DNA of 64,000 bases from Macrocystis pyrifera (taxonomy: Eukaryota > Sar > Phaeophyceae > Laminariales > Laminariaceae): NCBI GenBank assembly GCA_031763025.1, contig JASSKH010000002.1, positions 21,839,168-21,903,167 on the forward strand, written 5' to 3'. Below the pieces are notes generated by a model, which saw only the letters and a list, made by a program, of their open reading frames with translations, did not search any database and was not told the origin of the DNA. How positions within the stretch are numbered: the stretch's first letter is position 1; every line of letters begins with the position of its first letter. Made by a program: the position numbers and the translations under genes. Shown here one piece after another: positions 757 through 49,301 of the stretch.

Positions 757-1291
757 TGTTGCGGCGCCGTGGAGCTGTTACAGAGCCACAGTGCTTCGAG
801 GAGGATAATACGGCGCGAAACAGCTGTTCTGATCAGTGTCACGCGTCGGGTCTATTCGATGGGCAGAGAGTAAACTCTAGTTAGCTTCTCTGGGCGGATC
901 TTGTAGGGGAAGGGAGGATCCCCGGTGTGGGAACGCCTTCAGTTCTGTGTAAAAAAACAGTAACGAGGTCACGGTGTTTACTAAACACCACCAAGTGAAG
1001 AAAGGAAGTCAAAGCCAAGTGATCTGTGATCTGTGATGCCTGTCCTATCGACCCCCAGCCCCTTGGGCCTTGCCTTGCCCGTTGTGCCCGTCATCGTGTC
1101 TGTGGTGCTTCGTCGAGTGTTCACGCTGGCTGCTTGCATCTACCGCATTGCATCGATCCATGTTCTGCGTGACCTGATCATTACTGCTTGAAGGCACTTC
1201 CTCGAACTCTCAAACAACAGGTGAGCCGGCCTCAGAGATCTAACGAACGCAGGTGCTTCTTAGGGTCTGAGAGCTGTACCCTGCTGTAACA
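757..1291 (+). repeat. 5' LTR of gypsy-1
   Basis: The LTR is 535 bp, begins TGTTGC and ends GTAACA, and matches 10798-11342 at about 95%. It lacks a ~10-bp stretch that the 3' LTR has near 11016. Its first ten bases resemble the LTR of the gypsy-2 family (TGTTGCGGCG), which suggests one lineage. Confidence 0.93.
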
Positions 1292-1309
1292 TGGTGCACC
1301 CAGGGAGAT
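1292..1309 (+). other. Primer-binding site of gypsy-1
   Basis: TGGTGCACCC follows the LTR end directly. Its TGG start is what a tRNA 3'-CCA end would pair with. I did not assign the tRNA species. Confidence 0.65.
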
Positions 1310-2190
1310 CGAAGTGCATTGCAGGAGACCGAAGTGTCTGCAAAACGGTTGCAGAAGATCGAAGTGTTTGCAAAATCGGGGGAATGATACTATCGTGCTC
1401 ATGCGTCACCTCATATTGATCTCGTATAATAGTCATATACACTTGTACACCCACATTCATATGCATGTGAAAACCCGCATGCTTTTGTTTTGCCTGCCTG
1501 CCATTATGGCCGTACTTGCAATGCTGTTATGTGTGCACGCTGCCAATGGCGCTCCGTCTGTTCGTTTTGTATTGCTTTAAAGATATGTGCTCGGTCAATG
1601 CATGCAGGCATACTCCTTGCTCGTGCTTCGTCTGCCTGTTGCCCGTGCTCGTTTCTGCTCGTTGTTCATGATCACACACATGCACGTTCGTTAATAAATT
1701 ACTGCATGCTGTTGACCACATATCATCTTCAAAAACAAATGCACACGACAGGTGTCGATACAGACCGAAGGTGCAGTACGCACTAATACACGCATAGTCT
1801 CGTACCAGTATGCCGTTCGCCCGGGTTGGGTGACACCTGTAACTAATTATGTGGAGCCTATTGCTGTAGTGATGCCGTCCAAGAGCAAGGTCATTTATAA
1901 CACATGCTTTGACGAACACGTAACTCGCTTTCAGGCCAAGCATGGATCAAGAGTTTGAAAACACTAACAGTAACATTTTTTTTCAGGACAAGTCTGCACA
2001 CCTGACACACAGACAATCTCAAGCAACATAAGGGCTGTGAACGATATTGACCGTATGTGAGTATATGTTCAAAATACAGCCAGATACATGTGGCCTTCCC
2101 CTTTTTCTGTGCAGTCATACAATGCCCCGAGCGTACAAACAGGGTGAAACGTACAGCAGATCGCAGAAAGGAAAGGGAAGGGAATTGGAG
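1310..2190 (+). other. Leader of gypsy-1 (no clear coding)
   Basis: This ~880-bp untranslated-looking leader lies between the primer site and the first gag-like reading. It contains short imperfect repeats of a GATCGAAGTG motif at about 1306-1372. Short open stretches here are not supported by any recognisable domain. Confidence 0.5.
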
Positions 2191-4660
2191 AAACATGGAC
2201 AACCGCCACGCCACCAACGAGGACGACCGTTCCGGCGAAGGAGGCAATGCGCGGGGTGACGAACCATCTCGTAGCAGCAGCGACCGGGGGAGCGACAACG
2301 ACCAGGACCACAGTGGTAACCGCAGCAGCAGCGATCAGCCACGCGAACGCGTCCACAGCCCCTACGGTGATCAGGGCCAAGGTGTAGGAGGGGGGGGCAT
2401 GGGCGAACCTTACCCATCTAGTGACTACGACCGTGGTCGCGACCAGGAGCGGGAGGATAGCGGTCCTCGTAGCCGTGGCCGCCGCTCTGGCACCAGCTGC
2501 TACCATACGCAACGCCGCAACCATGGCCGCAGCCATCACAAGAGCGGGCAGGAGCGGCGCCGACGCAGCCGTAGCCGCGACAGCAGCGAGCGCCGCAGCC
2601 GTCGCGGCCGGGGCAGTGACAGCAAGAAACGCAGCCGCCACCGTAGCCATAGCCGCGATAGCCAAGAACGCCGCCGTCGTCACCACGGCTGCAACCGCGA
2701 CAGCAATGAACGCAGCCGCCACCGCAGTCGCGGCCGCGACCACAAGGAACGCCGTCGCCGCCGTAGCCAGGACAGCAGCGACGTCAGTGCACCCTGGGAG
2801 AGCCGCCGCCGCAGCAAAAAGGGGAGGTCGGTACGGAGCCAGCAATAGTCCCCGTCGCCAAAATGTCAAAGGGAACGGCCGTTGTCGCTCTCCCAACAGA
2901 GGCAGCAGCCGCCACAGCAACAGCAGCAGCTGCCGCAGCAACAGCATCAGCAGCTGCCGCACCAGCAGCAGCAGCAGCACCAGCAGCAGCACCGGCGTCA
3001 GCACCAGCAGCACCGGCGTCAGCACCAGCAGCAACGGGTGTCGGCGCAACCCCTGCGCCCGGCACCGGCAACAAGCCTGGCACCACACCCGATTGGCTAC
3101 GCAGCGCATCCATGGAGTCTGGGTAACATGGGGGGGGGTATTCTCGCGCACATTACTCGCCCGCGCAGGCGCCCCAGGCGCAAATGTTACGCCAGCCACA
3201 GCCCGCACCAACGGCATACGTCGGGCAGCATGGAGCACCATACCAGCACTACCGCCGTCCTACCCCCTGTATCTGGCAGCCGAGCCAAAACGCACAGACG
3301 CCCCAACCGGCGGAGGTAGCACCGCCACAGACCGCAACCCACCTGGGGTCATTGGAACCCAGCAGTCCGAAAGAGGGCAAAAGGGTCGTGAGCAAGATCG
3401 TAGGCGACATGGGACTGATAAAAGGCCAAGATGGTTTCGTGGGACTGGTTGTAGCACCTCAGGGCGAGCTCTCATGGAGGAACAACCCAGTGCTGTTCGT
3501 CGACAAGCTTACTAAGATCATGTCACAGGTCGCGGGGGCGGCGTGGGGCATGCCCCAAGACCAGTTCTCCACCGATAGGATCAATCCTGCCCGGCCGCGA
3601 GCAGATAGGCTGACGCCGTGGAGAGTCGAGTGCTTTGGAAAGCTCATCGCAGACACCCTGGCGACACGCGATCTGATGCGTTCGCACTCTACGGTGGAGG
3701 TACCTCTCGTACAAGGGGGTTTTTTCCACATTCCCTTCGAGGACGTCCGATCGCAATGGGATGGAATCCCTCCTTATCCAAGTGGGCACTGACGTTAAGC
3801 GATACCTCACTCCGGTACACGTGGACGCCGGTAAACCTCTGAATCCGTACAGGATACACGGCGGAGAAGTCTCTCACGGCATATTCTACGGCTTGATCAA
3901 CGCACTGCTCACCCGGTGCAGTTGTTACCCCCTAGCCGCGGTACCCCTGACAGGACGGAGCCGAGGCAGCGTAGAGGGGCTAACGCAGAGTCAGCGGCTG
4001 TCCCTGGGACAGAACGAGACGAGGGGGTTTCCGTCGAGGGAAGAATGGGGGAAAAGAGGTAAACCGCGCACCAGGGAACTATCCAAGGCGCAGAGGAAGA
4101 AGATAGAGGCGCTCCGGGACAGTGCGTGCGCGGCGCTGGCCGCGGTAGACGGGGAATTATCCTTTGAACGGCGAGGAGGGAGAGGGGAAGGACGTGCAGG
4201 AGGAAGCGTTTGACAATCGCCCACACGTCGCGTCCTTTTCCAACGTCCGCGCTTCTACCCCGGGTGCACATGGAACCCCGTTCGTAAGCCGCAAAGGTGA
4301 CCGAAACGACCACCCTGGCAGTAGGAACCGAGAAACAACGGACCGCAGGGAGGAATGGGACGAACTACCGAGCCCGGATTCCGAAGACAGGGTGATTATC
4401 GACGCCTTGCGCCAACGAAGGGTTTGCTTCTTCCATCGGAGGGGTTCTAACTGCCCCCACAAGAGCGCTGCCGGTGGAGGAAGGTGCCGCTTCTCGCACG
4501 ACGAGGACGTCGTGCTGTACGGACTGTACCCCCGCAAGACCACCCCGACGCAAGCCCTGCAGCTAGAGCCGGGTATGCTTACGGCACTCGAAATGCGGAG
4601 CGCGTACACGGCCGAGGAGGGCTGGGCCGCCGCAGGTGCCTCGCATGTCTTGCGGGCTTG
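2190..4660 (+). pseudogene. gag region of gypsy-1: RS-rich, Q-rich, capsid-like and CCCH-finger segments
   Basis: Four segments follow one another. First comes an Arg/Ser-dipeptide-rich stretch of roughly 170 codons (about 2260-2850) that looks like the RS domains of splicing factors. Next is a Gln/Pro-rich run (about 2880-3060). Then comes a non-repetitive segment (about 3330-4000) in the place of the capsid domain. Last is a CCCH zinc finger (about 4390-4500; Cys-x8-Cys-x10-Cys-x3-His, ending CRFSH). Gag normally coats the RNA in virus-like particles. Here a CCCH finger stands where a CCHC knuckle is usual, so RNA binding is inferred from the finger type. The region is fossil, with several breaks. 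The RS stretch is GC-rich and open in several frames on both strands, so frame openness alone is not evidence there. Confidence 0.6.
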
Positions 4661-4889
4661 AAGAGGCGCTCCAGGAGGTTCTCTCCTGGGGAACAGAACA
4701 GCAGCCAAAGTGAGCAACATACGCGGGGCTGGGAGGAAGAGGAGGAGAGACGCAGTACTTACGACGCCGCTTCGACAAAGGGCGGGGGGGGCGCAAACAA
4801 CGATGAGGTCGTCTCGGCGCAGCAGTACAGCAACGTCGCGTTGAGCTCTCTAGATGTGGACACCCCAAGCAGCGTGGCGGCCGTGGGAA

Positions 4890-5310
4890 AGGGGGCTAAG
4901 CAGGTGTGGGTGCCCGCATTCGTGTGGCACCACACCAGAACTAGTTGCCGCATTCCTGTGGAGGTGCTGGTCGACACGGGGGCAGGGGGTGGAAATTACT
5001 CTTTCGCGGCATTCGTACGCTCCGTCGAACACAGTGGAAGAGGGGGGCAATCGATGATGAGCCCGAGGGGACAGGGGTGGTTGAGGGCAGCCAACCCCAC
5101 GAACAGCGCAGTCTCGTCAATGAAAAAATTCTGGTCGTGCGAGCTCCCGTTGGTGTTCAGCCCGGAGGACAGGGTGCGCAAGGTACTGGTGCGGGTGGTG
5201 GAGGATCTCCCGTACGGCCTTATCATAGAAGCAGCGTTCCTGAGAAAGAATGGTAGCACTATCAGCGTCGCGGCCGGGGGAGGTTTGAAACCGACACCAG
5301 AGTCACCTTA
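4890..5310 (+). pseudogene. Aspartic protease part of gypsy-1
   Basis: A DTGAGG motif near 4974 follows a hydrophobic strand (VEVLVDTGAGG), the usual catalytic loop of retropepsin-like proteases that cut Gag-Pol. It sits between the gag finger and the RT part, the expected gypsy order. Roughly 5300-6180 holds further pol sequence with no domain I can name. Fossil. Confidence 0.55.
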
Positions 5311-6179
5311 GGTACCCTTCATCTCGTCAACAGGAGCCTCCTCGTCGAAGGTGGCGGAGCGGAAGGCGGTGAGCTGGCATGCGTCTGTCCAACCGAGCAG
5401 AGCAGAAGTGGGGCCAGTAGCGACCAGGAACACGGCAACGTGGGAGCAATTTTGCGCCGTCAGGCCACCCTGTGGAGAGGGAGAGCCGGCGGAAATAACC
5501 GAGCCGCCCACATAACTCAGCGAGGGCTCAGCGGCCTGGGAGGACGATGGCACCCTACAGTGGGAACTACGTCCAGCCCGACATACGGTGGTACCGGGTT
5601 TCGTCAGCGTGCAAGTGGACGCTTATGCCAAGGGAGTCCAACCCCAAGACAGGCAGCTGGTGGTAGTGGAACCGAAGGCTTCATACGACATGGAGACGGG
5701 GGCATAGTTGGGGATCGCGCGCGGGGCGCAGTGGTGGCACCCCGGAATGCCGCTCTAGTGCAAGGTGGTGAACCGTTCGAAAGTACCCTTAGCACTGAAG
5801 CAGGGCGGGGTCGTTGCTCGGAATTTACGCCGTCAACACAAGGGACAAGGAACGCATGCGGATGCTATTAGACCTCGTCGTGCAGGCAGACGGCACGGCG
5901 GAGATGAAGGAAACGTCAGTACTGGTGGCGCCGGAGGAACGCGCGGGTGAGGGGGCGGACGCCGACGGGGTGGACTTGTCGTTGGCCAACATCGCTCAGA
6001 CGAGTGCCCCAGTGAAGAAAGCCCTAATTCGAGCGTTGGAGAAGTACCGCCATGTGTTCCCGGTGAAACCGAAGATTGTCCCGACCTGCAATCGAGCTAA
6101 GTTGCAGCTTCCGCTGACTGACAGCAGTTGAACGCCCCACACAGCAAAACAGCGACGGTATTCGCCGGAGGAAACGGCC

Positions 6180-6950
6180 ATGATCCAGAGCGAGGTGGCG
6201 AAGCAACAGAAAGCAGGGACGATTCGCCGGTCGCAGTCAGCGTGGGCAGCAAACTGCGTCGTTGTGGCAAAAAAGGATGGCACGGCGAGGATCTGTCAGG
6301 ATTATCGAGGGCTGAACGCGTTGCTGGAGTCCAATAGCGGAGGGCTAGGGGATAGCGACTTCGACAACATGAGGGGCGCCACGTGCTTCACGTTCATTGA
6401 TCTAGCGTCAGGTTTCACCCAGTTGGAAGTTGCCGAGGAAGACAAGCACAAGACCGCGTTTCGTGACGCCCATGGGGAGCTGTGGAAATTCAACCGGTGC
6501 GGTTTTGGGCTGAAGACCCTTCCTTCTGGCTTTGCGGCCTATGTGGGGGAGGCGCTGGGTCCGCTAAAAGGAAAAGGAGTTCAGAACTGGCTTGACGACA
6601 TCATCGCCCACACCAAACACGTCGAGGGACATGCGGGCCTGGTGGAGAAGGTGCTGGCGCGGCTCCAGCAATTTGGGTTGTCGGTGAACCTGGCCAAATC
6701 GACTTGGTGCGCTCCGCAGCAGGAGTTCGTCGGCATGGTGGTCAACAGACTGGGCGTACAACCGTCGAAAACGAAGATAGAAGCGGTGGCCAGACTCTCT
6801 CGCGTTAACACTGTAGAGGAGGACAGGTCACGTTTGGGCAAGGGCAGCTACCTCAGGAAGTTTGTGCCAAGATACAGCTCGATCGTGTCGCCTATCTCGG
6901 GCCTGTTAGGGACAAGCGGTTCGCGTCGAAAAAGGCAAGGAGGCTCCGGG
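6180..6950 (+). pseudogene. Reverse transcriptase part of gypsy-1
   Basis: Gypsy-type RT blocks are visible in order: RICQDYRGLN (about 6290), FIDLASGFTQLEV (about 6394), FRDAHGELWKFNRCGFGLK (about 6460-6515) and the LDD active-site block (about 6590). These are the palm motifs of Ty3/gypsy RT, which copies element RNA into DNA inside particles. The region connects directly into RNase H. Fossil. Confidence 0.85.
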
Positions 6951-6959
6951 TGCCGTGGG

Positions 6960-7600
6960 GGGTGGAGCAGGGAAAGGCTCTGAAGGCCCTGATCGAGCTC
7001 CTCACATCGCGATTTTGGCGTTGCCGAATTGGGAGGCCCCGTTTCAACTGCATACGGACGCCAGCGAGTTCGGTGCGGGAGCGGCGCTTACGCAGGACAC
7101 CAGGGGAGAGAAACGTGCCGTTGGATACGCGAGCCACCGGTGGTCAAGGACGGGTGCCAAACGATCCGCAACGGAATGAGAGGTGATGGCAGTGTTGTGG
7201 GCCATCCAGCATTTCAGACCGTACTTGTGGGGCAGGAAAGTCGTTCTGTTCACTGACTGCTCCGCGCTCACGTGGCTGTTCAAGAGCCAGGCCCTCTCGT
7301 CGAAACTCCACCGGTGGGCGCTCAGGTTGATGGAGCACGACATCGACCTCCAGTGGCGACCGGGGGCAAACCATCAGCTGCTGGACGCCCTCTCGAGGCT
7401 GCCGCCTAACGACGCGCCGCGCACGGATATCGATGACTCATTCCCAGACGATCCCTCCCCGAGGACCACGTACCGGGGCCCCAAGGGACGGGTGCTCGAC
7501 AGCGTACTGCTCAGCGAACTGGGGGCAGACGAGTTGAACAAGCCAACGGGAAAAACGCGGCGGTTGGGGCAGTTTTACCCCAGGCAGAGCCGTTGACGCA
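6960..7600 (+). pseudogene. RNase H part of gypsy-1
   Basis: The segment carries the gypsy RNase H series: HTDASEFGAGAALTQ (about 7048-7092), GYASHRWS (about 7122), then VLWAIQHFRPYLWGRKVVLF followed by TDCSALTWLF (about 7191-7280). The end reads W-R-P-G-A-N-H-x-x-L-D-A-L-S-R (about 7356-7400), the typical closing motif. It degrades RNA in RNA:DNA hybrids during reverse transcription. The same WSVNYFRPYAWGRE-type block survives in the gypsy-2 relics in both arms. Confidence 0.85.
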
Positions 7601-7629
7601 GACACTGAGAGAGTCACCACAACGTCCGC

Positions 7630-8170
7630 ACCCGAGGAGCATCCAGTCGCCGTGGTGCTCTGCTGCGGGGGAGCAGGTGGTCTCATGGCGGCGAAGGAGA
7701 TGGTCGCAATCAAGGGTGCTACCGACCACGATTGGAGAGCGCTCGAGTGTGTTAGGGAGAACGGGTTGGACCCATGGAGTTCGACTGGTGAGAGCGGAAC
7801 CAGGGAGGGAAGATTGCAACAGGCTCTTGAACGACTTGAGCCCGGGCGTCGTGATGGGAGATGCATCCAGAAAGTCAGGCCAGCAGGGGCCCGGTGGAGC
7901 AGCAGCCTTGGCAACGAATATCTTGAAGGCCTTCATTGATTCGACGGCCAGGGTTCTCCTGCTGGAATGCTACCCGAATCTACTTCGATCGACGGAGTGG
8001 GGGCAGGTAGTGCTGCCTGCGTTGAGGGAAGCGGCGGGTATGGTGAAGACAGTCCAAATGGCGGCGGACATCGTGGGGGTTCCGTCGGGGGAGAGGAAGG
8101 CGTTCGCTGTCGGCGTAAGGAGCGGGAGGCCCGGAAGGGAAGATGTGAGGAGTGGAGGAGGGATATAGAA
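7630..8170 (+). pseudogene. Cytosine-5 DNA methyltransferase-like module inside gypsy-1 pol
   Basis: Between RNase H and integrase, short blocks recall C5-cytosine methyltransferases. VVLCCGGAGGL followed by GATDHDWRALE (about 7652-7750) resembles the motif I/II S-adenosylmethionine site (FxGxGG and an acidic D-x-D). LLLECYPNLL (about 7954-7985) resembles the ENV motif. AADIVGVPSGERKAFAVGVR (about 8056-8118) resembles the VIII region (GVPQ-R-R-F-G). Order and spacing fit the family. A methyltransferase here could act on element or host DNA in the nucleus; that is inference. Methyltransferase capture by retrotransposons has been reported in some algal and dinoflagellate lineages, as I recall. 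It is part of a broken element, and I recognised the family from motifs only. Confidence 0.55.
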
Positions 8171-8870
8171 AGGCGCGACGCAGGGTGCACATCTCTAGGG
8201 AGATTCTTGGGGAGGAGGGGAACCTACTTCTTCAAGCGAGGCGTGGAAGAGAGGGAGGTCCTTTCGATTGGCGATCTCATCATTTCCATCACTCGAACGC
8301 ACATCATGGGCGGGAAACCTTCCGAAGGAACTTACAGACCGCACCCCTTGGACGCAAGCGATATCGACCAAGCAGACGAGCTGACTTCTGCGGAATACAA
8401 AAAACTCGCCACCGGACGAGCGGACTACCGAATGCCCCCAACCGTCAGCAGGGGAGCAGCGGCCGCGATATTGGCGGACTTCTCATTGCCACCTATGGCG
8501 AGAGAGGCCTTGTCGGGGTTGTGGGCAAAGGGGCTGTTGACAGACAAAGCCAAGGGGGGGCAGCTCCACGGAACTAAATCGCTGGAAGGTTTGCAGGCGC
8601 TCTTCGAGGAGGACATAGCCGGGGTAACGCCGGCGGAAACGAGGTCCAGAGCGGGCGTAGCGAGAGGAAGGTCAACAGAGCAGCATGCGCAGGTGCCAAT
8701 GCCGCTTGTTACACAGTCGACCCCGTCAGCACTACCGTCGTCATCGCAGGTACACCCCACGGAAAACGTGCCGCCACGGTCCAGAGCACAGCCCCAGCTG
8801 AGGCGGCGAGCACCGAGAGCGGAATACTCGGAATACTCGGGATCCCTTCCTTCCATGGTCGGAAGTGCTG
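8170..8870 (+). pseudogene. Unassigned pol segment between methyltransferase-like module and integrase
   Basis: About 230 codons with no named domain. A compact part (about 8330-8560) contains YRMPPTVSRGAAAAIL and FSLPPMAREAL and could be a target-recognition or linker region of the preceding methyltransferase-like module. The rest (about 8640-8870) is low-complexity Pro/Ser/Arg linker. I do not assign a function. Confidence 0.35.
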
Positions 8871-8874
8871 CGTG

Positions 8875-9880
8875 CTAAAGCCGCGACTGGTGCGACGGCA
8901 ACGGGAGGACGCGCGACTTGGCCCTATTTGGAGCAGATTGAGAGGAAGAGGTGACAGGCAGTCACCGGAAGGGACGGTGAACTACGTTCTCGACGATAAC
9001 GACTTACTGTGGAACGCGCCTCGGGGGGAGGCACCGAAGTTGGCCATTCCACGAGCATTAGTGCCAGGGGTGCTGGCACTCGTGCACAGTACCTACGGCC
9101 GCCCGGGCGTTGCGCGGACCCTCCTGCTGATTAAGGGCAGGTACGGATGGCCGACAGTAGCCAAGGACGTCAGGGAGTACGTACTATCGTGCGGTTGCAG
9201 GAGGAGAAAAAGAGCCCGGAGCCAACGCGTGGCCATGATGCCTGCTCGGTTACTGTGGCCTTGGGAAGTGCTTGAGATGGACCTCCACGACATGAAGCAG
9301 GTATCTAGCGCAGGGAATGGGTACCTGCTGGTAGTGGTGGATCGAGCCAGCCGGTTCCTGTTTGCGTACCCGCTGGAGCCTAAGGGTTCTGTGGGAGTGG
9401 CGAGGAAACTCCTGGAGCTGTTACTCACGTTTGGCGTGCCGCTGTCGATTAGGAGCGATGCCGGGGGGGAGTTCACCTCTAAGGTGGTCGTCCACCTGTG
9501 CCAGTGGCTGAGGGTGGAGCTGCATCATGGTCCTGCTGATCACCCTCGTAGTCAAGAAGCCGTGGAAAGGATGGGGGGGGTGGCTCCAGGAGGTCTTGAC
9601 GGAGCAGTGTAAATCTTGGCCGGCAAGGCGGGACGAATATGAAAGCGTGGCCTGTTGGATTCAAAGGACTACGCCGGACCCGTGTCTCCCGCCAGGTGGG
9701 ACACCCTTCGAGGTTCTGTTTGGTCGTGATGCGCACACAAATCTGGATGCTCTTACTCCTGCACTGGACGGTGAAAATTTCCGCACTGGGCTCGAAAATG
9801 TCGTGACGGAGAGACACCAGACGTTCATGGAACTGCGGGCAATGTTGAAGAAGCTTCAGGAGGACGAGAACAAGTGACGC
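8875..9880 (+). pseudogene. Integrase part of gypsy-1
   Basis: An N-terminal zinc-binding segment (VHSTYGRPGVARTLLLIKG ... YVLSCGC, about 9085-9210) is followed by the catalytic core. That core shows EMDLHDM (first Asp, about 9274), a beta-strand VVVDRASRFLFAYP (about 9333-9372) and RSDAGGEF (second Asp, about 9448-9475). It then runs into the helix that carries the Glu. Integrase inserts the double-stranded DNA copy; the 4-bp TAAG duplication is its footprint. The same zinc-binding and core blocks are recognisable in both gypsy-2 relics. Fossil. Confidence 0.8.
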
Positions 9881-10017
9881 GTACGTCACAATGCGGTCAT
9901 TAGGCGACACTCTCCAGGCGAAGGGGTGCGAGTGGGAGATCTGATACTGGTAAAGGAGGCAGACAGCAAGATGGCGCAGCAGGGCACTCACGCCAAGCTA
10001 GCACATGGCCGTGGCGG

Positions 10018-10676
10018 GTGACAGCCATTGCACGACCGGGTATCAGCTACCAGGCTACAATGAGCGGCAGCCGGGCCAGGAGGAGAACGGTTTCGGCTGC
10101 CAGCATTAAGGCATTTTACGTGCGGCTGGAGCATCTGCGCCATACTTTCGAGGACAAAATCGCGCATCTGGCATGGGGCGCGGACTTGGGGTTGGCAGAC
10201 ACCTCGACGGTGGCGGTGCCGCTCTATACCCTGACGGACTGGCGAGCCATGGAGAGCACGGGGACCGGGTGGGAGTGGCAGTACCGAGGGCGATACCAAA
10301 GTGGGGTGGAGTCAGAGTGGCTACCTCAACAGGAAGTAAGGGACAGCTTCACCCCTCTGCAACTCGACGTCTTCCATGCCCTCTGGGAAGTGTACAACGG
10401 AAAGGACTGCCGCCCCCGGCCGCCGGACCACTACCGAAGGAAGAGCGTGACCAGGAGCTGCGAACGAGAGCGCTGCAGGACTTTCCGACGGGGACGCAGG
10501 TCAGGCGGTCGTTTGCTGGATCTGACGGGGTGAGTCGAGCGGCGGTAGGAAGGGTGTACGACTTTTGGGAGCCGTGCTGGCGAGTGAGATACCCTGACGG
10601 AGATTGGGAGGAGCTTAGCCGCAGCGAAGTGACTCTGGGGGTTGAGGAACACCGGAGCGCCGCGGGCCAGGGGTGA
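10018..10676 (+). pseudogene. C-terminal pol tail of gypsy-1 with Tudor/chromo-like module
   Basis: The tail has a conserved block (FTPLQLDVFHALWEVYNGKD, about 10349-10408) that recurs in the gypsy-2 relics as FTSRQLDRFHALYGL. A short beta-barrel-like segment follows: VGRVYDFWEPCWRVRYPDGD with WEEL after it (about 10543-10616). The pattern G-x-V plus Y-x-DGD-x-EEL is typical of Tudor/agenet-like chromatin readers. It sits where many gypsy elements carry a chromodomain, so a role in targeting integration is a reasonable inference but unproven. Confidence 0.5.
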
Positions 10677-10785
10677 CCCCCGTCAGCAACAGGCGGGGAA
10701 CGGAAGCGGTGAGCCGATTAGCATGGGGGGAGAAGAAGCATTCGGCTGCTGGGGGGGGCCGTTTTGCTGCGGCGCATGCTGCGTC

Positions 10786-10797
10786 GGGCAGGGGGGG
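10786..10797 (+). other. Polypurine tract of gypsy-1
   Basis: GGGCAGGGGGGG runs directly up to the TG of the 3' LTR. This is the usual primer position for plus-strand DNA synthesis. The gypsy-2 relic shows the same design (ACTTGGGGGGG before its LTR). Confidence 0.7.
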
Positions 10798-11342
10798 TGT
10801 TGCAGCGCCGAGGAGCTGTTACAGAGCGACAGTGCTTCGAGGAGGATAATACGGCGCGAAACAGCTGTTCTGATCAGTGTCACACGTCGGGTCTATTCGA
10901 TAGACAGAGCGCAAACTCTGGTTAGCTTCTCTGGGCGAATCTTGTAGGGGCAGGGAGGATCCCCGGTGTGGGAACGCCTTCAGTTCTGTGTAAAAAAACA
11001 GTAACGAAATCACGGAACAACCCGGTGTTTACTAAAGACCACCAAGTGAAGAAAGAATGTCAAAGCCAAGTGATCTGTGATCTGTGATGCCTGTCCTATC
11101 GACCCCCAGCCCCTTGGGCCCTGCCTTGCCCGTCGTGCCCGTCATCGTGTCTGTGGTGCTTCGTCGAGTGTTCACGCTGGCTGCTTGCATCTACCGCATT
11201 GCATTGATCCACGTTCTGCGTGACCCCATCATTACCGCTTGAAGGCACTTCCTCGAACTCTCAAACAACAGGTGAGCCGACCTCAGAGATCTAACGAACG
11301 CAGGTGCTTCTTAGGGTCTGAGAGCTGTACCCTGCTGTAACA
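10798..11342 (+). repeat. 3' LTR of gypsy-1
   Basis: The LTR is 545 bp, begins TGTTGC and ends GTAACA, and is followed by the TAAG duplication. It matches the 5' LTR at about 95% with one extra ~10-bp stretch. Confidence 0.93.
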
Positions 11343-11358
11343 TAAGCACACAAAACAA

Positions 11359-11373: not shown

Positions 11374-12059
11374 CTGATAGATTGCTTTGTTTGGGTGGGT
11401 TTGATGTATACATAATCGCATACGTAGGGTTTATGTTCAATGATGCAAGGGCAACGATAGCGATGGACCTGGTACAAAATTGAGTACTGGTACGCAGGAA
11501 CCTCGAAAACCTAAGAAAAAAAGTATCTCATCAGAAATGCAACTGAGTCGCAGGAAGAGTGCTTCGCTGAGTTAGGTGCACCACAGGTTGTGTTGGGAGT
11601 TTACGATTCGACCACAATACTGCTGATGAAAGCGCGAGTATAGTCCTGTACGTGCATTGCTGTAGTTCGTGGTGGTACACTATTGTTGTTATTTTGGGTG
11701 TCCGTCAAAAACAACGTTGTTGCATGCAAAAGAAGGGAGTGATACAGAAAGGACCACACCCGGTATGCACCCACGAAAACGTCCTCATTATTAATAGGTA
11801 TAGACACAGCAGTGATCCGCATACTGGCTGTGACTCATGGTATGATCTGACAACTTTTGCTAGTCCGTGGTTTCTACTGTTGAGCAGGGATGAACTAAAG
11901 CCACACACAGTACACAGACCTGGCACGAACTGACGACGATGATACCACAGCAGCAGCGTAAGATCAGCACAATCGTGGCAATTTACCGGTATTCTGCACC
12001 TGTTGGTTAGGAGTGATTTGCCATCTTTTCAGGTGTTCATGTTGTTCACAACCTGATTT

Positions 12060-13540
12060 GCACTTATCAACGAGAGGGGTTGTATGCTAGTACGGCTGGT
12101 ATTCTTGGTACAATAGGAAGCGTGAGATGTGCATATCGGCTGTTGTTCGGGTTGCATGATGGATAGTACTCTTGGCTTTCTTGGTATGATAGCATGCCTG
12201 AGATGTTCGCATATCGGCTGTTGTTGGGGTTGCATGACAGTGTGCTTGGTGCTCTTGGTATGGTAACACGCTGGGGAGTGAGAACTTGCCATTACTAGCA
12301 GGCAGGATGGCGAAGTGAGCGCCCCCGAGGATTGATCTCAGTGAAGGCGAGGAGCACTGATGAGCGTAGCACCTTGCAAGTGGAGGTAAGCACTTGTCAT
12401 TATGCTATCGCTCAGAGGGAGGTGAAGGTAAACCCCTCCCTCAGATTGGATGCTGTGGAGATTCCAGGAATTTGGTGGGTTTGTGTGCTGTTGAGTGTCC
12501 TGGAGTCTGGTTTTGTAGCGAGGTGAGCGCCCCCGTAGGTTGAGTTCAGTGAAGGTAAGCACTGAGGGCTTAGCATCTTGACAGTGAAGGTGAGCACTTG
12601 TCATTAGAGGGGCAGATGACGGTGAGCATTCCCCTGAGACGTGAGTTTTGTTGGGTTTGTGGGGGATTTAGTGTGTGTTTACTCTATTGCATAATCGGTA
12701 ATGGGTAGTATAGCATCGTACCACTTACAACTTAAATGCACTCACTGTGATTTCATAATGGGTAATGGGTACGGTGGCACCGTACCACTTCTACCTAGAT
12801 GCATTCACTTTCGCTCAAACGACGTGCGGTTGTGTGTCGTCGTTATGGAACAGTCTATGTCACTTATGCTCAGAGGACGTGAAGTTACGTGCCGTCGTCA
12901 GGGCAAAGGCTGCGCTACTCATGGTATTGAATACTACAGCACCGTACCACTTACCACTTAGATACATTCACAGCAGTGTGCCCTCGTCAGGGCAAACGCT
13001 GTGCTACTCATGGTATCGAATACTACAGCACCATACCACTTGCCACTTAGATACATTCACAGCAGTTATGTGCCGTCGTTGTGGCAAAGGCTACGTCACA
13101 TGTGCTCAGACGACGTGAGGTTGTGTGCCTTCGGTAGGGCTAAGGCTGTGCCACTTATTCCCAGACGACGTGAGGTGCTATGCCGTCATCGCGGCAAAAG
13201 GCTCTGCCAATTTGGCCTAGGCGACGTGAATGTTTGGGCCGTTGCTGCGCCAAAGGATTTGCCTTGTTTGCTTAGACAACGTGATATTGTGTGCCGCCGT
13301 CATAGCAAAGGCGGGCGGTGGGAGGCAAAATATCGTACCCGGCGCCGTGGCAGTTTGCTTCACCTAATTTCTGTTCCGAACGCTGTAACACGTTCGCCCA
13401 GCCGACGAGAGGTAGTGTTATGCATTCGCTGTGACAAACGGCTGCCATTTTGGCCTGGACGGCGTGAGGTTTAGCACTGTCGTTCCGGCAAAGGATTTGC
13501 CACGTTAACGCACACGACGTGAGGTTGGGTGCCGTCGTCA
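12060..13540 (+). repeat. Minisatellite cluster, left arm
   Basis: Three degenerate tandem families lie side by side. About 12090-12290 has ~70-bp units around ATCGGCTGTTGTTGGGGTTG. About 12310-12640 has units with GTGAGCGCCCCCG and GTAAGCACTTGTCATTA. About 12690-13540 has ~70-bp units around CGACGTGAGGTTGTGTGCCG and GGCAAAGGCT. The mirror cluster is at about 47190-48640. No host gene is visible. Confidence 0.75.
13100..13474 (+). CDS. 124-codon CxxC-repeat open frame, left arm copy (doubtful gene)
   Basis: This is an ATG-to-stop frame through the minisatellite, built of repeats of about 23 residues (69 bp) with R-R-R-E-V-L-C-x-x-x-G-K-R-L and V-C-R-R-H-x-K-G patterns. The right arm copy (47283-47657) has exactly the same length and about 82% identical residues (22 differences counted). 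Length conservation is notable, but many differences change residues. A repeat unit that is a multiple of three with no stop can stay open by chance. I see no known domain. I rate it more likely a coincidental repeat frame than a gene. Confidence 0.22.
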   Translation: MCSDDVRLCAFGRAKAVPLIPRRREVLCRHRGKRLCQFGLGDVNVWAVAAPKDLPCLLRQRDIVCRRHSKGGRWEAKYRTRRRGSLLHLISVPNAVTRSPSRREVVLCIRCDKRLPFWPGRREV

Positions 13541-15440
13541 AAGGCGGGCAGTGGGTGGTAGAGGATTATACCCTGCCCTGTGGCAGTGTGCATGTATCTG
13601 ACATCTGTTTTCCACGAGTATTTGGCCTGGGTGCTCCGATATCAGACGCGCAAAGAGCTCTGTACGACCTATGAAGGGCACCTGGTTGGCCTATTGAGGC
13701 GGTCCGTACTTCGACACAGCTCTGTGCATGGCATAGACGAGCAAGCATGCACGGGCGGGCGCCGTATCCGGGTGCGGTCGCGTAGCTTGTCGCTACAGCA
13801 GTTTGGACGTTGCCCACGATGAAATAAGGAACTGCAAGTCCTTTTTCAGTACAGTGTATAGTACCGGGGGTATCCATGCATGCAAAGTAACGGTACAAAG
13901 AAATGCTACACTATCGTTCAGGTGTGTACCAAACAATTGTATCTGTACGTGTTTGATATATTGCAGAGTCTCTATCTTGTTTCATGCACGAATATCCAAT
14001 TGTTCATATAATAAATATGCACTTGTGCGGTAGTGTACTTGATTTGGTGTGTCAGATGAGGTTTTCATTGTTCCAAGCACGATCTCAAGTACCACGGTAT
14101 CCTGATTGCTGCAGTTTTCGGGGGGATGAACGACGGAAGAAAAAACGAAACATAAATGAGATATATCTAAGTTTGTCTACACGTTAAAGTCAAACCCTCT
14201 ACGTATACACCTGCTCATATTACTTGGAACAGCGTCTTTAAACACCTATGCGGACCATCTGGTACGCGCTTCAAGCCAGGAAATAAACCGCGTTACCGGG
14301 TATAACAACGGTAATATGTGGCCGGAACAAAATGGTTGAGTACGCTAATCGAGACGGTAATGAGTGTAGGATAGAGAATGTGTGCCTGACAAAGAATCCG
14401 AACCGGGACCACGACACCAGAAATCAGCCAAAGCAACAGTTTAGCGTCCCACCGAAAATAGTTGTCGTTTTTCCGGTGCATGTGTCACAGTGATAGAGAC
14501 AGGATAGGGTGGATGAAGTTATTCTTCTATGTCTTGCGTTCGCCCAGCCGAGCAAAACGCAAGGGGGGGGGGAGGGAAGCACATCCAAGGTAAGGGGATT
14601 ACTGTTGTCAACTCAACCCGTGGCAGAGGGTGCCTTAGATAAGGGGACTACTGTACTTCCGGCGGTCAACCCAAATTACCACCAAGGTAAATGGGTTATT
14701 CAGGAAGTGGACAATCGACCCCAAGGTGCAGACGTTGGAATTAATGAAACAATCGACTTCAAAAGCATATAGGGATCGCTCCGAAATGTGAAGCAGCCGA
14801 GAGTAGAGTTCCTCTTCTCCTGACGACCGTCCTTGAAGATCGAATGCTCGAAAAGAGGGTAAAAATCATGGAAGGCGGCTCTGTGAGTTAATTCAGTGCC
14901 ACAACCCTTGAGAAATACGGGACTGTGATCAATGTCGCGAAAGCGGAAGGCTCTTTAACTGGGTGCCACACTCTTGAGGCAAACTAGGAGGGTCACAATG
15001 AGACAGAAAGGCTACTGGATCCGGGATTATCACGGATATGGCAAAATAATGTAAGCAGAGTCAAGCCCACGAAACCGGAGTTAAAGGTAACCGGTTCCAG
15101 AGCCACCACGGGTACTACCAAGGAGGTGACAGAGTCACACCCAACGAAGTCAGAGAGAACGGTAACTGGCTGATAAACGGCGCCCAACGCTAAGAATGGA
15201 CCGGCGTGTCTCGACAACTATTTGCACGAGTGGGAGTGGTCAATTCAGGGGTAAGTCCATCACGCTCCAAGATCAACGCTATACTCAACTTGCTCAGGTC
15301 AACGTGCTGGGAAAGGTGAGCCCCTTGGTTAGCGTGGCTTGGTACCGGCGAGCACGTGCCTCCATACCAGCCACTAGAACAACAAACGAACCTGTCCCGG
15401 CCAGACAGAAACGTCCAACACATGCAAGTGTTTGAGATCA
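13541..15440 (+). other. Arm sequence without recognisable gene
   Basis: This is ordinary arm sequence matched by about 45100-47190 in the other arm. A short frame at about 14509-14772 is not maintained in the other arm. The stretch 14760-15440 may be decayed 5' pol of gypsy-2, but I cannot show domains there. Confidence 0.4.
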
Positions 15441-18325
15441 AAGAAAGGGTCTCGCCAGGTACACACGAACTCCGAGCGGGTCATCGAGTGTACTGTCGCC
15501 TTGAGTCAATCAGGCAAATGCTGGGCAGTCGTCCGCGGCACAGGAAGTGAGTGCGATGTTGTGGTCGGTGAACTACTTTAGACCGTATGCCTGGGGAAGG
15601 GAGTTGCCCGTCGTCGACTCGGCTGTTCGAAAGTCAGAGATGTTCCTCCATGCGGCGCAGAAGAGAGCTGCGATTCATCGAATGCGCCACGGACCTGCAG
15701 TAGTCACCCTGAGCTCGTCACCTGCTCCCGAATTTCCTGTCAAGGCTGGCGTGTTCTGCTTTGAGGTTGTAGGTTCAGAGATGCTTTTCCAGATGATCCA
15801 CCTTGTTGTCAAACGTACTGAGGCCCGGAGGGACTAGCATCGGAAGGACTCATCCTTGCGAAGCTTGGTGTAGACGAAGAGATTGCACCGGCAACAGAGA
15901 GTGATACAGGAATTAGAGCCAAACGCTTTGTGTACAAATCAGGTGCCACCTGTTATACATGCATACAACCTGTAAACGCGCTCGAAACCAGATAATCAAC
16001 CGCGTTGTGACCCCCATAACATGCCTGATTAATCAACGTCGATGGTTGTTAAGATGACTGGAATTACGGAAACTTGTGACATTCTTGGTGTTGCCGAGTC
16101 ACTACGCCGTAGCTGTGGGTTATCTCCAAGGGCGACGAGACGGTACGAGGGGCCCGTAAGTCCACCCTCTGCCTTATCAACCCAAGTAATTGATACAGGG
16201 CAGAATTCGCGTCTGTTGGAGGGAGACCAGGGAAGAGGTGGAGTGCTACCATGGAAACACGAATATTCTTAGTCGAGCTTGTGGGTCAGGTGAAGAGGCA
16301 AAGATGAAGAGTGATGGTACCTGCAATACCACGAAGGTATACGCCGGCAGACCCATGATAACGAGGACTCAAAGCCAGCTATATCGAAGGCAATGATACC
16401 GGAATTGTTTGCCTTGGTTCGCAACACGTTTGGTGGTCCGGGCGTGGCATGCACAACGTTTCTGACCCAGGGCAAGTATAAGTATCCCACGTTAGCCAAG
16501 GACGTAAAGTATGTGCTCGTATGTAAGCGCAGGGGGAGCAAAAGGGTGACCACGCAAGTGACAGTATCACTCACTAGCACCCTACAATCGTGGAAGGTCT
16601 CTGAGATGTACATATCAGGCCTAAAGCAGGGGCTGCAAATAGGCAATAGGTTCGAGTATGTGTTGTCCTAGGTGGAAGAACCTGGCACATCCTTTAATCA
16701 CGTGTCCTGTGCCGTCGAAGGAGGCACTTGCGGTAAAGCCTCACACTGAGCGATGTGCGTTTCGGAATCGCTATTGGTCCGGGGGGGAGTTTACAGCCGT
16801 GAACCCCCTGTGCCAGTCGCTGAGAGTGTCGGTATGCTACGGTCTTGTCAACCACACCCGAGGGCAGGGATCCGTTTGAACTATGCGAGAGTGGCTGCAG
16901 AAAGCATTATCGGGACTCTGCAAGTCTTCACCTCTTCAGTGAGACGAAGAAGTACTCTCCGAGTGATGGATTCGGCGTTTCGCCCCAGATCTTCGCCCAC
17001 CAAGCGTTTCGTTGACGTTAGTCAGCCTGCCACTGATGGGTATCAGGCCGGGGTTAAACGTTTGTCATGCCTGTCATTGATTATTGTGATGCCTGTCATC
17101 GACGTTTGACAAAATTTACGTGGACGGGTGCATTGCCAAACCGAGGACGACGGTCTTCGCAGTGGGCATCAAGACTATTCATGAATGCTCCGACCTGGCA
17201 ATACCGTCGATATGGCTCGCGCACTTGGTCGGGGGATCGGATAGAAGACTTGCCGAGAATTACACTTTGGCGGAAACCGTTGTACACGATGACCGATCGC
17301 AAGCTCTCGAGGGACGTCGCAAACACGTGAGTATGCGAGTACGTTTTAGCTGGCTTGACGGGAATCTTCGAGAGTATCACTCAGCTACAGCTGCACGTAT
17401 TCCTGGTGGAGACACGTGAGTATGGGAGTAGTCCATAAAGGGATCCGGATGAGGTGAGTATAGGTTTCACTTCCAGGCAGCTGGATAGATTTCACGCTTT
17501 GTATGGACTGCACCTGTGTTCAGACTGCCGTTCTCGCCCGGAGATGTCAATAAGGGAAGAGCGACAAACAGCTTCCAGAGTAGCGAGCGAGGCACACCGT
17601 CTAGATACCAAGGTCCGGAGGGAGGCTTCAGACGTTTGAAGGTGGCAAACGTTCATCGAAGAAGTGTACGACGTCAGCCATGATAGCAGCGAGTGGGGTG
17701 TCCAGATGAAGATTGATAGCAGTTCAGGCGTCAAGTCTAAACCAAAGAAAGCAGCTGGCGACAACTTCAGCCTAAAGCGTTTGTTCAAGTGGTGGGTCTG
17801 GCTGGAAATGGGAAGAAGACTAGGAGGAGTGGAATCGCCGTAGTTGCAGCGGAGGAAAGGGCTTGCGGCGATCTCAGTCTAGACCGCTTGTTCAAGCGGC
17901 GCGTCTGGCTGAGACGGGAAGAAAAAGCTCTGTCATCCGGGGCCGCACTATGTTAAGATCTGGAGGACCATACCAGACTTGGGGGGGTGTTTGCGGCGGA
18001 GGAACGCGGGAGCAACCAACAGTACGACGAGTCGAGGCATGCAGCCACGAGTCGTTGGGCACAGAGAAGAGGCGAAATACTCTGTGGGTGTGGGATGGGT
18101 GTTTCATTCAGCAGACGGTTTCAGCCTGCTCAATGCAAAACGCCTGACCAAGGTGTATAGCGCATGCAGCGCGTGGACCAACAACGAATGTCTTTAGACG
18201 CTACCCAGGCAAGGAAGATAATACGTGCAAAACTTGAAAAGTGAACTATAGGACTAAAAACTAAAGGATTAAAGGATTAAAGGCTAAACCGACTGTTCGC
18301 TCGCGTATACGCGTCATTACGCGTG
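15440..18325 (+). mobile_element. Gypsy-2 relic in left arm (3' half of a Ty3/gypsy element)
   Basis: Decayed pol follows gypsy-1 in order: an RNase H block (MLWSVNYFRPYAWGRE, about 15556-15603), methyltransferase-like traces (about 15700-16230), the integrase zinc-binding part and core (about 16390-16870), and a C-terminal block (FTSRQLDRFHALYGL, about 17465-17510). Then come a polypurine tract and the start of an LTR at 17988. No 5' LTR or gag is identifiable in the arm. It is heavily broken (well over ten breaks) and clearly older than gypsy-1, since it was already present when the arms were duplicated. Confidence 0.75.
17988..18325 (+). repeat. Truncated LTR of gypsy-2, left arm
   Basis: It starts TGTTTGCGGCGGAGG after a G-run and matches the first ~340 bp of the LTR at 39448-39970. 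The match stops at 18325. Confidence 0.8.
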
Positions 18326-26677: not shown

Positions 26678-28171
26678 TCATTCCGAACCAGAAACGCCGC
26701 CACCCCCAGCCCCCCCGCGACGACCCCCACCTGGGCGGAGCACCAGAGCCCGCGACCAATCAGCCTGCGCCGCCGCACCACCTCGCAATCCCCCAGCTGG
26801 TGCCGCCGATCCACTGTCGAAGAGAGCTGCAGGAGACGAGGCGTCGGCCGGGCAATTCGCATGCACGAATTTGCAGTCGGAGAACCGGCATTGCCCCGTG
26901 GACGAAAACATCCTGCACAGCGCGGCCTTCTTCTTTCTGGCCGGACCCATCTTGGCGGGGGCGAGGCTTTGATTCCGCTTGGACGCCCCATCCCGGCTGT
27001 CGCGTGGAACTTGGAGACCTTTGACGAGCCTCAGAACGTCGCCACCGGACGAGCAAAAGGAGCGGGTGCGGCTGAACGCAGGGGCAGGCGGCGCGTCAAA
27101 CACGGCGTTAAACTGCGGGGGAGCAGTCAACGGACGAACTTGTGGAGCGAACCTCATGAGGTCGTTCACCCAAAGACGTAGGTCGTCGTTCATCATTTCG
27201 CTCACAACAACCCGCGCCGCGGAGCCGCAAGACAAAACGATGTTGCTGAGAGTGTGACTGCGAAGGCCAGCAGCCGCGGATGTGAAAGAAACGTCGACGG
27301 GTGCCAACCGGTCAAGGCATGCGCGGTCGTCCGCGACGTCAGCCGAGAGTCCAACTCTAAGAACCGCCATAAGAGCCTGGCGCAAGAGGTCCAGGCGGTC
27401 CGCGATCATCGCCAGGTGGTCGACCAGGCGTTCGGTACGTGGCCCATACGAGGCCACGTTAAAATTGCTGACGGCACGAAGCTGAGCCGCCACCTCCGCC
27501 GTAACATTGATGTCCTCATCCACGAACGACTGGATATCCGCGGCTGACTCGCCGAGGTTCTGGGGCAAGCGTCCCCGAAGCAGCCAGTGTTTACGAGACG
27601 ACGTTTTCTTCCACATGGCCGTGTCGTCGGTAAGCTGCGATTTCTGTACGTGACGCTCCCTCGCATCTCCGCTGTTCCGCACAGAAGGCTCACGGTTGGA
27701 AAAGTTGTCCACAAACTGCTGGAGGAGTACTTCGTTGTGGGTGATCTTGGATGCGCTGCTGGTGACGGCGTCCCAAAGGCTAGCCACAGACAGAAGCACG
27801 TTGTCCATTGTAGATCTGACGCCGAGGATGTCCGTATCTATGCGGGAAAACTCGGATACCACCTGGTTCTGCCAATGCAGAACGTCAGCCTTCGATACCG
27901 CTCCCCCCGAGGCTGCCGGCATAGATGGAGGACCAGCCGCAGCCGCAGTGGTAGCAGCAGCAGCAGTGTTGGCCTGGCGAGCGGTCGCAGCAGCATCTGT
28001 GGCCTGGCGAGCCTCGGCCTCGGCTCTCCCAGCACGGCGTGCGTCGACGTCCGCTTGCACAGCAGCTACAGCAGCATGAGCATTCGCCTCAGCAAACAAC
28101 GCAGCCTGCGCCTTGCGCGCAGCGGTAGCCGCTTTGGCCGTGGCCTCCGGCGACTTGCTCTCGTCGGACAT
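26678..28171 (-). CDS. Gag-like protein of the DIRS-like element, with CCCH finger
   Basis: An uninterrupted 497-codon frame from ATG at 28171, directly after repeat A1. Residues 1-95 are Ala/Arg-rich with coiled-coil character, 96-370 are mostly helical and non-repetitive, and about 430-450 form a CCCH zinc finger (CRMFSSTGQCRFSDCKFVH; C-x8-C-x5-C-x3-H). The tail is Gly-rich. The first frame of DIRS/Ngaro elements usually encodes the nucleic-acid-binding Gag-like protein, so that role is inferred from position and finger. GC content is far above the flanks. Confidence 0.7.
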   Translation of the reverse strand: MSDESKSPEATAKAATAARKAQAALFAEANAHAAVAAVQADVDARRAGRAEAEARQATDAAATARQANTAAAATTAAAAGPPSMPAASGGAVSKADVLHWQNQVVSEFSRIDTDILGVRSTMDNVLLSVASLWDAVTSSASKITHNEVLLQQFVDNFSNREPSVRNSGDARERHVQKSQLTDDTAMWKKTSSRKHWLLRGRLPQNLGESAADIQSFVDEDINVTAEVAAQLRAVSNFNVASYGPRTERLVDHLAMIADRLDLLRQALMAVLRVGLSADVADDRACLDRLAPVDVSFTSAAAGLRSHTLSNIVLSCGSAARVVVSEMMNDDLRLWVNDLMRFAPQVRPLTAPPQFNAVFDAPPAPAFSRTRSFCSSGGDVLRLVKGLQVPRDSRDGASKRNQSLAPAKMGPARKKKAALCRMFSSTGQCRFSDCKFVHANCPADASSPAALFDSGSAAPAGGLRGGAAAQADWSRALVLRPGGGRRGGAGGGGVSGSE

Positions 28172-28390
28172 CCTGAACTCAAACTAGTCTGTATCACACC
28201 TTGGACCTGTAGCTTTGCCTATGCTTCACTGCGCTGTTACGTGTAGGTCGCGGCTACGTACCAGACAAGGCGTGTGTACCAAGGGCTACGATTCATGCTA
28301 CCGTGAATCACCGCAGTCATCTGATTGGCTAAAACTTCTTACGTACGTATAAAACTCACATTCTCTCATTCTTTCGAGAATACTTTGCAT
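28172..28390 (-). repeat. Split direct repeat A1
   Basis: This ~219-bp terminal repeat lies directly before the gag-like ATG and is the partner of 22640-22855. Its outer end GAGAATACTTTGCA meets the satellite sequence CTGTCAAGG. Confidence 0.85.
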
Positions 28391-39447: not shown

Positions 39448-39970
39448 TGTTACGGCAAGCTCCCGTTGTGAGCTGTCAACCCTCACCTGACTCGCCTCCT
39501 CAGTTCGTACGTTGGACCCTTCGGCAGTCCCAGTGGCTCCAGGGCTTTGCTCAGGCGAGAGCGAAGCAAACGATGACCAAAGCCCTCGACTGCGAGCGAT
39601 GCAGATACTCGATTATGCCCGTTATCTCGCGTAATGATGCGTATATGCGAGCGAACAGTCGGTTTAGCCTTTAATCCTTTAATCCTTTAATCCTTTAGTT
39701 TTTAGTCCTTTATTCCACTTCTTAGGTTTTGCACGATTTCTCTTCCTTGCCTGGGTAGCGTCTAAAGACACTCGGTGTTGGCCACAACGCGGCATGCGTT
39801 GTACACCTTGGTCAGGCGTTTGACATTCAGCAGACTGAAACTGTCTGCTAAATGAAACGCAAGTCCCACACCCACAGAGTGGTCCGCCACTACTCTGCGC
39901 CCGACGATTCGTGGCTGCATGACTAGACCCGTCGTACGTTAGATTGCTCCCACGTCCCTCCGCCGCAACA
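39448..39970 (-). repeat. LTR of gypsy-2, right arm
   Basis: 523 bp. On the minus strand it starts TGTTGCGGCGGAGG, right after a G7 polypurine tract, and ends CTTGCCGTAACA. It matches the solo LTR at 56448-56953 along its length, and its first ~340 bp match the left arm. Its last ~180 bp lie beyond the arm similarity. Confidence 0.85.
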
Positions 39971-40039
39971 CCCCCCCAAGTCTGGTGCTATCTTCCAGAT
40001 CTTAAGAAAGCGCGGCCCCGGACGACGGAGCTCCTCCCC

Positions 40040-40265
40040 TTTCTCCCCCCCCCTGCCCATTCCATCCCCGCCAGACCCGCCGTTTGGACCAACGGTTTAG
40101 GCCGGGGTGGTCGCCATCGCCCTCCCTTGCTTCCTTTTCTTCCCCCCCTGCCCATTCCATCCCCGCCAGACCCGCCGTTTGGACCAACGGTTTAGGCTTT
40201 CCTCCGCTGTAGCTCCGGTGCTTCCACTCCATATCTTCTTCCCATTTCCAGCCAGACCCACCGCT
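40040..40265 (-). repeat. Three ~90-bp tandem units at the end of gypsy-2
   Basis: CCAGACCCGCCGTTTGGACC recurs at 40071 and 40166, with a diverged copy at about 40252. The left arm has only two diverged units at about 17770-17925, so the array expanded in this arm. Confidence 0.75.
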
Positions 40266-41255
40266 TTGACAAACGGTTTAGGCTGAAGTTGTCGCCAGCT
40301 GCTTCCTTCGGTTTAAACTTGACGCTTGAACTGCTATCTGGACACCCCACTCGCTGTTATCATGGCTGACGTCGTGCACTTCTTCGATGAATGTTTGCCG
40401 CCTTCGAACGTCGGGAAACTCCCTCCGGCCCTTGGTATCTAGCCGGTGTGCCTCGCTCGCTACTCTGGAAGCTGTTTCTCGCTCTTTCCTTATTGGTATC
40501 TCCGGCGGGCAAGAACGGCAGTCTGAACCCGGGTGCAGTCCATACAAAGCGTGAAATATATACAGCTGCCTGGAAGTGAAACCTGTACTCACCTCATCCG
40601 GATCCCATTGGGGAATACTCCCATACTTACGTGTCTCCACCAGGAATACGTGCAGCTGCAGCTGTGCAATACTCTCGAAGATTCCCGTCAATCCAGTCAA
40701 AACGTACTCGCATGCTCACGTGTTTGCGACGTCCCCCCGAGAGCTTGCGATCGGTCATCGTGTACAACGGTTTTCGCCAAAGTGTATTTCTCGGCAAGTC
40801 TTCTATCCGATCCCCCGACCAGGTGCGCGAGCCATATCGACGGCATTGCCAGGTCGGAGCATTCATGAAATGTCTTGATGCCTACTGCGAAGACCGTCGT
40901 CCCCGGTTTGGCAATGCACCCGTCCACGTAAGTTTTGTCAAACGCGATGACAGGCATCACAATAATCAATGACAGGCATGACAAACGTTTAGCCTCGGCC
41001 TGATACCCATCAGTGACAGGCCTGACTAACGTCAACAGAACTCATGGTGTTGAAGATCTGGGGTGAAACGCCGAATCCATCACCCGGAGAGTACTTCTTC
41101 GTTTCACTAAAGAGGCGAAGACTTGCAGAGTCCCGATAATGATTTCTGTCGCCACTCTCGCGTAATTCGACAGATCCCTGCCCTCGATTGCGGTTGACGA
41201 GCCCGTAGCACACCGACACTCTTAGCGACTGGCACTGGGGGTTCACGGCTGTAAA

Positions 41256-49297: not shown

Positions 49298-49301
49298 CTT
49301 A
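49298..49301. other. Empty target site of gypsy-1
   Basis: A single CTTA (TAAG on the other strand) with flanks that match both sides of the gypsy-1 insertion in the left arm. Confidence 0.9.

Follow-up and report, generated by a model that had tools for sequence, protein, structure and literature searches.

A Ty3/Gypsy retrotransposon of the brown alga Macrocystis pyrifera carries, between the RNase H and integrase parts of pol, a module whose profile and predicted fold point to the cytosine-5 DNA methyltransferases (C5-MTases), and which most likely no longer methylates, because the Pro-Cys of motif IV has been lost. The module recurs in two diverged lineages of Gypsy elements in the same genome. 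We consider it probable that it descends from a captured C5-MTase which lost this Pro-Cys and now serves as a non-catalytic binding part of Pol.

The host element

The element spans positions 757-11342 on the plus strand of the window, by which we mean the whole analysed stretch of 64,000 nucleotides. It shows the hallmarks of Ty3/Gypsy elements, namely LTRs with TG...CA ends, a short target-site duplication, the order reverse transcriptase, RNase H, integrase, and an H2C2 domain. The 5' LTR (757..1291, plus strand), with the ends TGTT...AACA, pairs with the 3' LTR (10798..11342, plus strand), which is preceded by a purine-rich run. The two differ by 24 substitutions in 537 aligned bases (756-1292 against 10797-11343; K2P 0.046), and a small scan of the ends found the 4-bp direct repeat TAAG on both sides of the element, at 753-756 and 11343-11346.

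All coding regions lie on the plus strand. A probable aspartic protease region (4451..5308), for which the Pfam scan gave no match, includes VLVDTGAG (4964-4987), which we take to be the aspartic protease motif. It is followed by the reverse transcriptase (6132..6980; RVT_1, 3.8e-17), the RNase H (6910..7593; RT_RNaseH, 1.4e-14 on the piece 7180-7593, with a stop at 7177-7179), the C5-MTase-like module (7640..8521), the integrase (8578..9609; H2C2 1.4e-9, rve core 5.4e-10) and a C-terminal Tudor-like domain (10491..10631; PTM_DIR17_Tudor, PF21743, 2.6e-4), whose 21.2 bits fall under Pfam's cut-off of 27.2. The same family matches the downstream part (L153) of the genomic copy L099 at 8e-5, likewise under the Pfam bit cut-off, and there shares a frame (3-1301) with the integrase C-terminus. 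The window copy itself is dead, because stops and frame changes interrupt its pol. It is inserted in an older repeat, parts of which are found at 81-545 and 11786-18288; the other copy of this repeat lies inverted at 39671-49979, and the arms are 81-95% complementary.

The module in the window copy

The original prediction had named four peptides in the order of C5-MTase motifs between RNase H and integrase, and this is borne out: the motif I-like VVLCCGGAGGL (7652..7684; VVLCCGGGGGL in L099) and the motif II-like GATDHDWRALE (7715..7747) share one frame, and the motif VI-like LLLECYPNLL (7956..7985), in which the Glu is kept and ENV is not, shares another with the motif VIII-like AADIVGVPSGERKAF (8061..8105; GVPSGKRKAFAVG in L099). 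The predicted extent of 7630..8170 stands insofar as the module is present there, but the module is longer, reaching from about 7640 to 8521 between the flanking RT, RNase H, H2C2 and rve domains; it is also broken in frame and includes a motif IV position that had gone unnamed. C5-MTases read G-x-P-C-Q at this motif, and the window copy reads GDASR (7857..7871), with a Ser at the site of the catalytic Cys.

The window copy shifts frame twice, near 7800-7815 and in the region of 8126-8160; from there on the module is again read in the first frame, which includes ELTSAEYKKLATGRADY (8378-8428) and extends to 8521, where the module ends in SLPPMAREALSGL. The C-terminal part (8183..8521), a target-recognition-like stretch with the motif IX/X-like ELTSAEYKKLATGRADY...LADFSLPPMAREAL, is weakly assigned: motifs IX and X are co-linear with C5-MTases in a low-threshold alignment only, and the model pLDDT is mostly below 50 in this part.

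A module particular to some Gypsy lineages

When the assembly of M. pyrifera (537,376,219 bases in 223 contigs) was searched with the middle piece of the window module, at least 122 matches were obtained, fragments counted (140 candidates, all scored). In two of the copies, L099 and L109, one open frame runs from within the reverse transcriptase via RNase H and the module into the integrase, and in L099 the flanking domains are confirmed by Pfam. A second lineage, represented by L113, has the same domain order in a frame of 1151 amino acids, its rve match being under the cut-off. L113 is 41% identical to lineage 1 over the module, and a genome search with its own module gave at least 136 matches, which include lineage 1 (129 of 237 candidates scored). 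The genome thus holds related Gypsy elements with the same module at the same place (L099, L109, L113), as it had been proposed to look for. A downstream frame of 118 amino acids in lineage 2 (L155:397-750) gave no family in the scan.

Relatives are likewise present in the protein database, eight of them at E <= 4e-45, of which two run on into H2C2. Two database proteins, P0013 and P0016, start at the RNase H end and continue into the module, and constitute a third lineage. A profile search found 29 proteins at E <= 1, including the further diverged lineages P0009, P0021, P0023 and P0027, and a further profile search added P0031-P0034. A chance string is ruled out by the eight close database relatives, the number of genome matches and the single-frame copies L099 and L109.

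In L099, 563 residues separate the RNase H end motif and H2C2; the distance is 139, 144, 144 and 139 residues in four further Gypsy elements from this genome, which were chosen for their long open frames from 150 scored of 2690 H2C2 candidates. The module is missing from these four, of which two score -1.0 and -1.6 bits and two are unlisted at E <= 10. The module is therefore particular to some Gypsy lineages and is not the usual pol linker, which contradicts the ordinary-linker explanation that had been set against the original prediction.

Resemblance to cytosine-5 methyltransferases

The Pfam HMM of C5-MTases, PF00145, found no match among the window pieces and their read-through, the L099 and L113 modules, the 33 alignment members and the proteins P0031, P0032 and P0009, and the window pieces and read-through matched no Pfam family of any sort. 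Direct Pfam and PDB sequence searches of the module gave no methyltransferase-type match either; the weak matches that turned up (complex-I entries, Pfam entries with one at 0.0036, and two more) were judged to be chance. To this extent the predicted similarity to C5-MTases failed to appear. It does appear, however, in profile-profile comparison with C5-MTases plus 167 decoys, where hhalign aligned 155 columns across motifs I-VIII in register at a probability of 67.9%, with a score that none of the 167 decoys reached. Motifs I, IV, VI and VIII are thereby placed in C5 register, and motifs I, II, IV, VI and VIII of the module follow the order and spacing of C5-MTases.

The predicted fold points the same way at low confidence. 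The best PDB matches in Foldseek are C5-MTases in 30 of 31 cases for one AlphaFold model and in 49 of the best 50 listed for another, both models being of low confidence (mean pLDDT 43.5 and 51.9), with Z ties to other methyltransferases in one comparison. Profile-profile comparison and the two low-confidence models together point to a resemblance to C5-MTases.

Loss of catalytic residues

Residues were counted in 53 distinct copies from 70 loci (L083-L152). These loci comprise the top 30 matches from each of two genome searches together with 10 chosen ones, and identical stretches were merged. The motif IV Pro-Cys is present in none of them. In lineage 1 (n=39) the Cys site holds Ser in 36 copies and Cys, Gly and a gap in one each, and the motif VI Glu is kept in 35. 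Lineage 2 (n=14) shows Cys at this site in 12 copies, without the preceding Pro, and Val and Thr in one each, while its motif VI site reads Gln in 10 copies and Glu, Arg, Pro and a stop in one each. Cys and the motif VI Glu occur together in a single copy of the 53, the decayed lineage-2 copy L130, where the two sites lie in different frames.

The alignment of database and genome sequences, in which both sites are readable in 23 of 38, gives the same picture: 13 have Ser/Glu, four Cys/Gln, and one each Cys/Arg, Phe/Glu, Tyr/Gln, Ala/Gln, Phe/Asp and Cys/Ile, the last two from the weakly aligned sequences P0030, with an E of 0.45, and P0031, whose motif VI is garbled. The pair Cys/Glu is found in none of the 23. 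The Asn and Val of motif VI are not kept among the module sequences listed, except in P0030 (DNT). Judged by these residues, the proposal that the module methylates its own or host DNA is not supported.

Proposed origin and alternative explanations

Homology and position suggest that a cytosine-5 DNA methyltransferase was captured into the pol of an ancestor of this stramenopile Ty3/Gypsy lineage. Two diverged element lineages now have the module in frame, and in the third it follows the RNase H end. A C5-like core of motifs I/II and VI-VIII has been kept, as seen in sequence and profile and, at low confidence, in the fold, and the motif IV Pro-Cys was lost. Such a domain may bind SAM and/or nucleic acid and hold cDNA, element RNA or target chromatin beside the integrase; in lineage 1 the integrase additionally bears the C-terminal Tudor-like domain, a putative reader. 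The structure of C71S M.HaeIII bound to DNA is the second of the best Foldseek PDB matches; since a Cys-to-Ser enzyme can thus still bind DNA, a binding role of the module is plausible by analogy. More tentatively, and with somewhat less than an even chance, a brown-algal Gypsy lineage may have turned the captured methyltransferase into a permanent non-catalytic Pol module that binds nucleic acid or chromatin and is combined with a Tudor reader, and this module may have spread to several diverged lineages, outlived the loss of 5mC in the host and escaped surveys based on PF00145.

The selection pattern bears on whether the module is instead a fading relic, an enzyme that was active when captured and now persists only as a spacer within Pol whose length stays about the same. 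Pooled dN/dS was estimated from distinct open lineage-1 copies (excluding those with stops, with a span below 90% or with an identity to L099 of 80% or less; identical copies merged), with intervals from a codon bootstrap, which ignores the relatedness of copies. It is 0.47 for the module (0.31-0.73, 18 copies) and 0.36 for its I-IV part (0.19-0.70, 20 copies), compared with 0.26 for the integrase (0.18-0.43, 18 copies), 0.58 for RNase H (0.34-1.10, 21 copies) and 0.63 (0.41-1.02, 23 copies) and 0.66 (0.38-1.11, 14 copies) for two linkers. The module is hence under some constraint, to a lesser degree than the integrase and not clearly more than the linkers, with overlapping intervals. That its value is nearer to the linkers than to the integrase is what a relic would show, as is the change of catalytic residues from lineage to lineage. 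Against this, the module interval excludes 1, the module is open in two deeply diverged lineages, and the motif II block is identical at 15 of 17 positions between L099 and L113, compared with 41% over the whole module and 36% in the linker behind it. We regard a relic as unlikely, although it is the alternative that retains most weight.

It is improbable that the module belongs to another class of Rossmann-fold methyltransferases, of the rRNA/tRNA type, and acquired a C5-like motif order by convergence. The Foldseek matches to both models favour C5-MTases, the hhalign register, obtained against C5-MTases, is theirs, and the motif VI Glu is separated from G-V/I-P by 37 residues, close to the 39 residues of M.HhaI.

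A further alternative depends on DNA methylation in the host. In the whole M. pyrifera genome, PF00145 matched a sole locus, with two exon-like matches 3.6 kb apart (L081 and L082; C193:13117374-13124297), and recovered no copy of the module; a large, diverged C5-MTase-like group in this brown-algal genome accordingly escapes a search with PF00145. The protein at the locus reads PPCQPF...ENVRGFE and is presumably Dnmt2-like. Brown algae are reported to lack DNMT1, DNMT3 and DNMT5 and to have kept Dnmt2 homologs, while their sister alga Schizocladia has DNMT1 (PMC13076208). Methylation at 5mC is reported as negligible in Ectocarpus (PMC12477816); about 1.4% of cytosines are reported to be methylated in the kelp Saccharina japonica (PMC6916402), so that its absence in kelps is not beyond dispute.

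Against this background the module might act as a decoy against silencing: without methylating, it would have counteracted the DNMTs that the host lineage formerly had, or would now bind RNA targets of the Dnmt2 type. The DNMT1 of Schizocladia (PMC13076208) and the Dnmt2-like gene still held by the genome are compatible with this, and the dead paralogs DRM3 and Dnmt3L are described as working with active partners (PMC2965745). With no DNMT1/3/5 partner reported in brown algae (PMC13076208), present-day upkeep would need another role, and we give a decoy only a small chance. That an element keeps many copies of a degenerate DNMT, although its host class reportedly has no DNMT1/3/5, raises the question of what use a methyltransferase fold has after the loss of methylation; how far the module has spread in relatives such as Schizocladia or Tribonema could show when the capture took place relative to the loss of 5mC.

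That the module is an active C5-MTase which methylates element or host DNA is very unlikely and is rejected as the leading reading: single residues persist (Glu in most lineage-1 copies, Cys in most lineage-2 copies, both in the decayed L130) and the DNMT domains of other retrotransposons are described as active (PMC5890265), but Pro-Cys is absent throughout the census, Cys/Glu is absent from the aligned sequences, and neither the negligible 5mC of Ectocarpus (PMC12477816) nor the reported lack of DNMT1/3/5 (PMC13076208) speaks for a methylating element.

Comparison with known systems

Non-catalytic retention of a captured enzyme, as we propose for the kelp module, has a parallel in the dUTPase-related region of BIV, which lies between RNase H and integrase. 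The BIV protein is a captured retroelement enzyme domain with no detectable activity that is nevertheless needed for replication; it differs from the kelp module in being a dUTPase of a lentivirus (PMC4261571). Among C5-MTase paralogs, DRM3 and Dnmt3L are without the motif IV Pro-Cys and still functional, and OsDRM3, predicted to be inactive, resembles lineage 2 in having the Cys but not the Pro before it; these are host genes with active partners and not transposon domains (PMC2965745).

The closest known element is KnitGypsy-Dnmt3 of Klebsormidium nitens, an LTR Gypsy present in several copies that likewise has a C5-MTase domain in its Pol ORF (PMC5890265). Its domain is reported to be Dnmt3-related, with conserved key residues, in a host with 5mC (PMC5890265), whereas the kelp module has no PF00145 match, has not conserved the key residues, Pro-Cys being lost, and resides in a host whose class is reported to lack DNMT1/3/5. 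Symbiodinium also has retrotransposon-borne C5-MTases in hundreds of copies, SymbioLINE-Dnmt and SymbioDIRS-Dnmt3, which differ in being of LINE and DIRS type and in their conserved key residues (PMC5890265).

In brown algae, Gypsy elements of Ectocarpus are reported to carry chromodomain, Tudor and NADAR domains, and one of them, Gypsy-10_Ec32 (Tudor-Gypsy), with a homolog reported in Tribonema, has a C-terminal Tudor domain like the kelp element; the description on which this comparison is based mentions no C5-type module (PMC12477816). The Sola1-1 element of Ectocarpus resembles the present case as a brown-algal transposon with a methyltransferase, which is predicted to be of the N4C/N6A type and is a separate gene on a DNA transposon (PMC12477816). 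The titles and abstract openings of the literature searched name no C5-MTase-bearing Gypsy of brown algae. A Gypsy with a DNMT is therefore known already; a catalytically degenerate one, in a host class reported without DNMT1/3/5, looks new.

Other features of the window

Further traces of mobile elements are found downstream. On the minus strand, RVT_1 pieces (8.5e-22 and 4.9e-7) lie in two overlapping frames at 51621-53785 and appear LINE-like by eye, and on the plus strand a Copia-type gag (Retrotran_gag_2, 1.2e-6) at 61285-62607 is followed by a GCA-repeat stretch. An open frame of 501 amino acids (26681-28183, minus strand) shows a weak CCCH zinc finger (0.0012, under the cut-off), and at 41318-43760 there are several tandem arrays whose repeat period is 43 bp.
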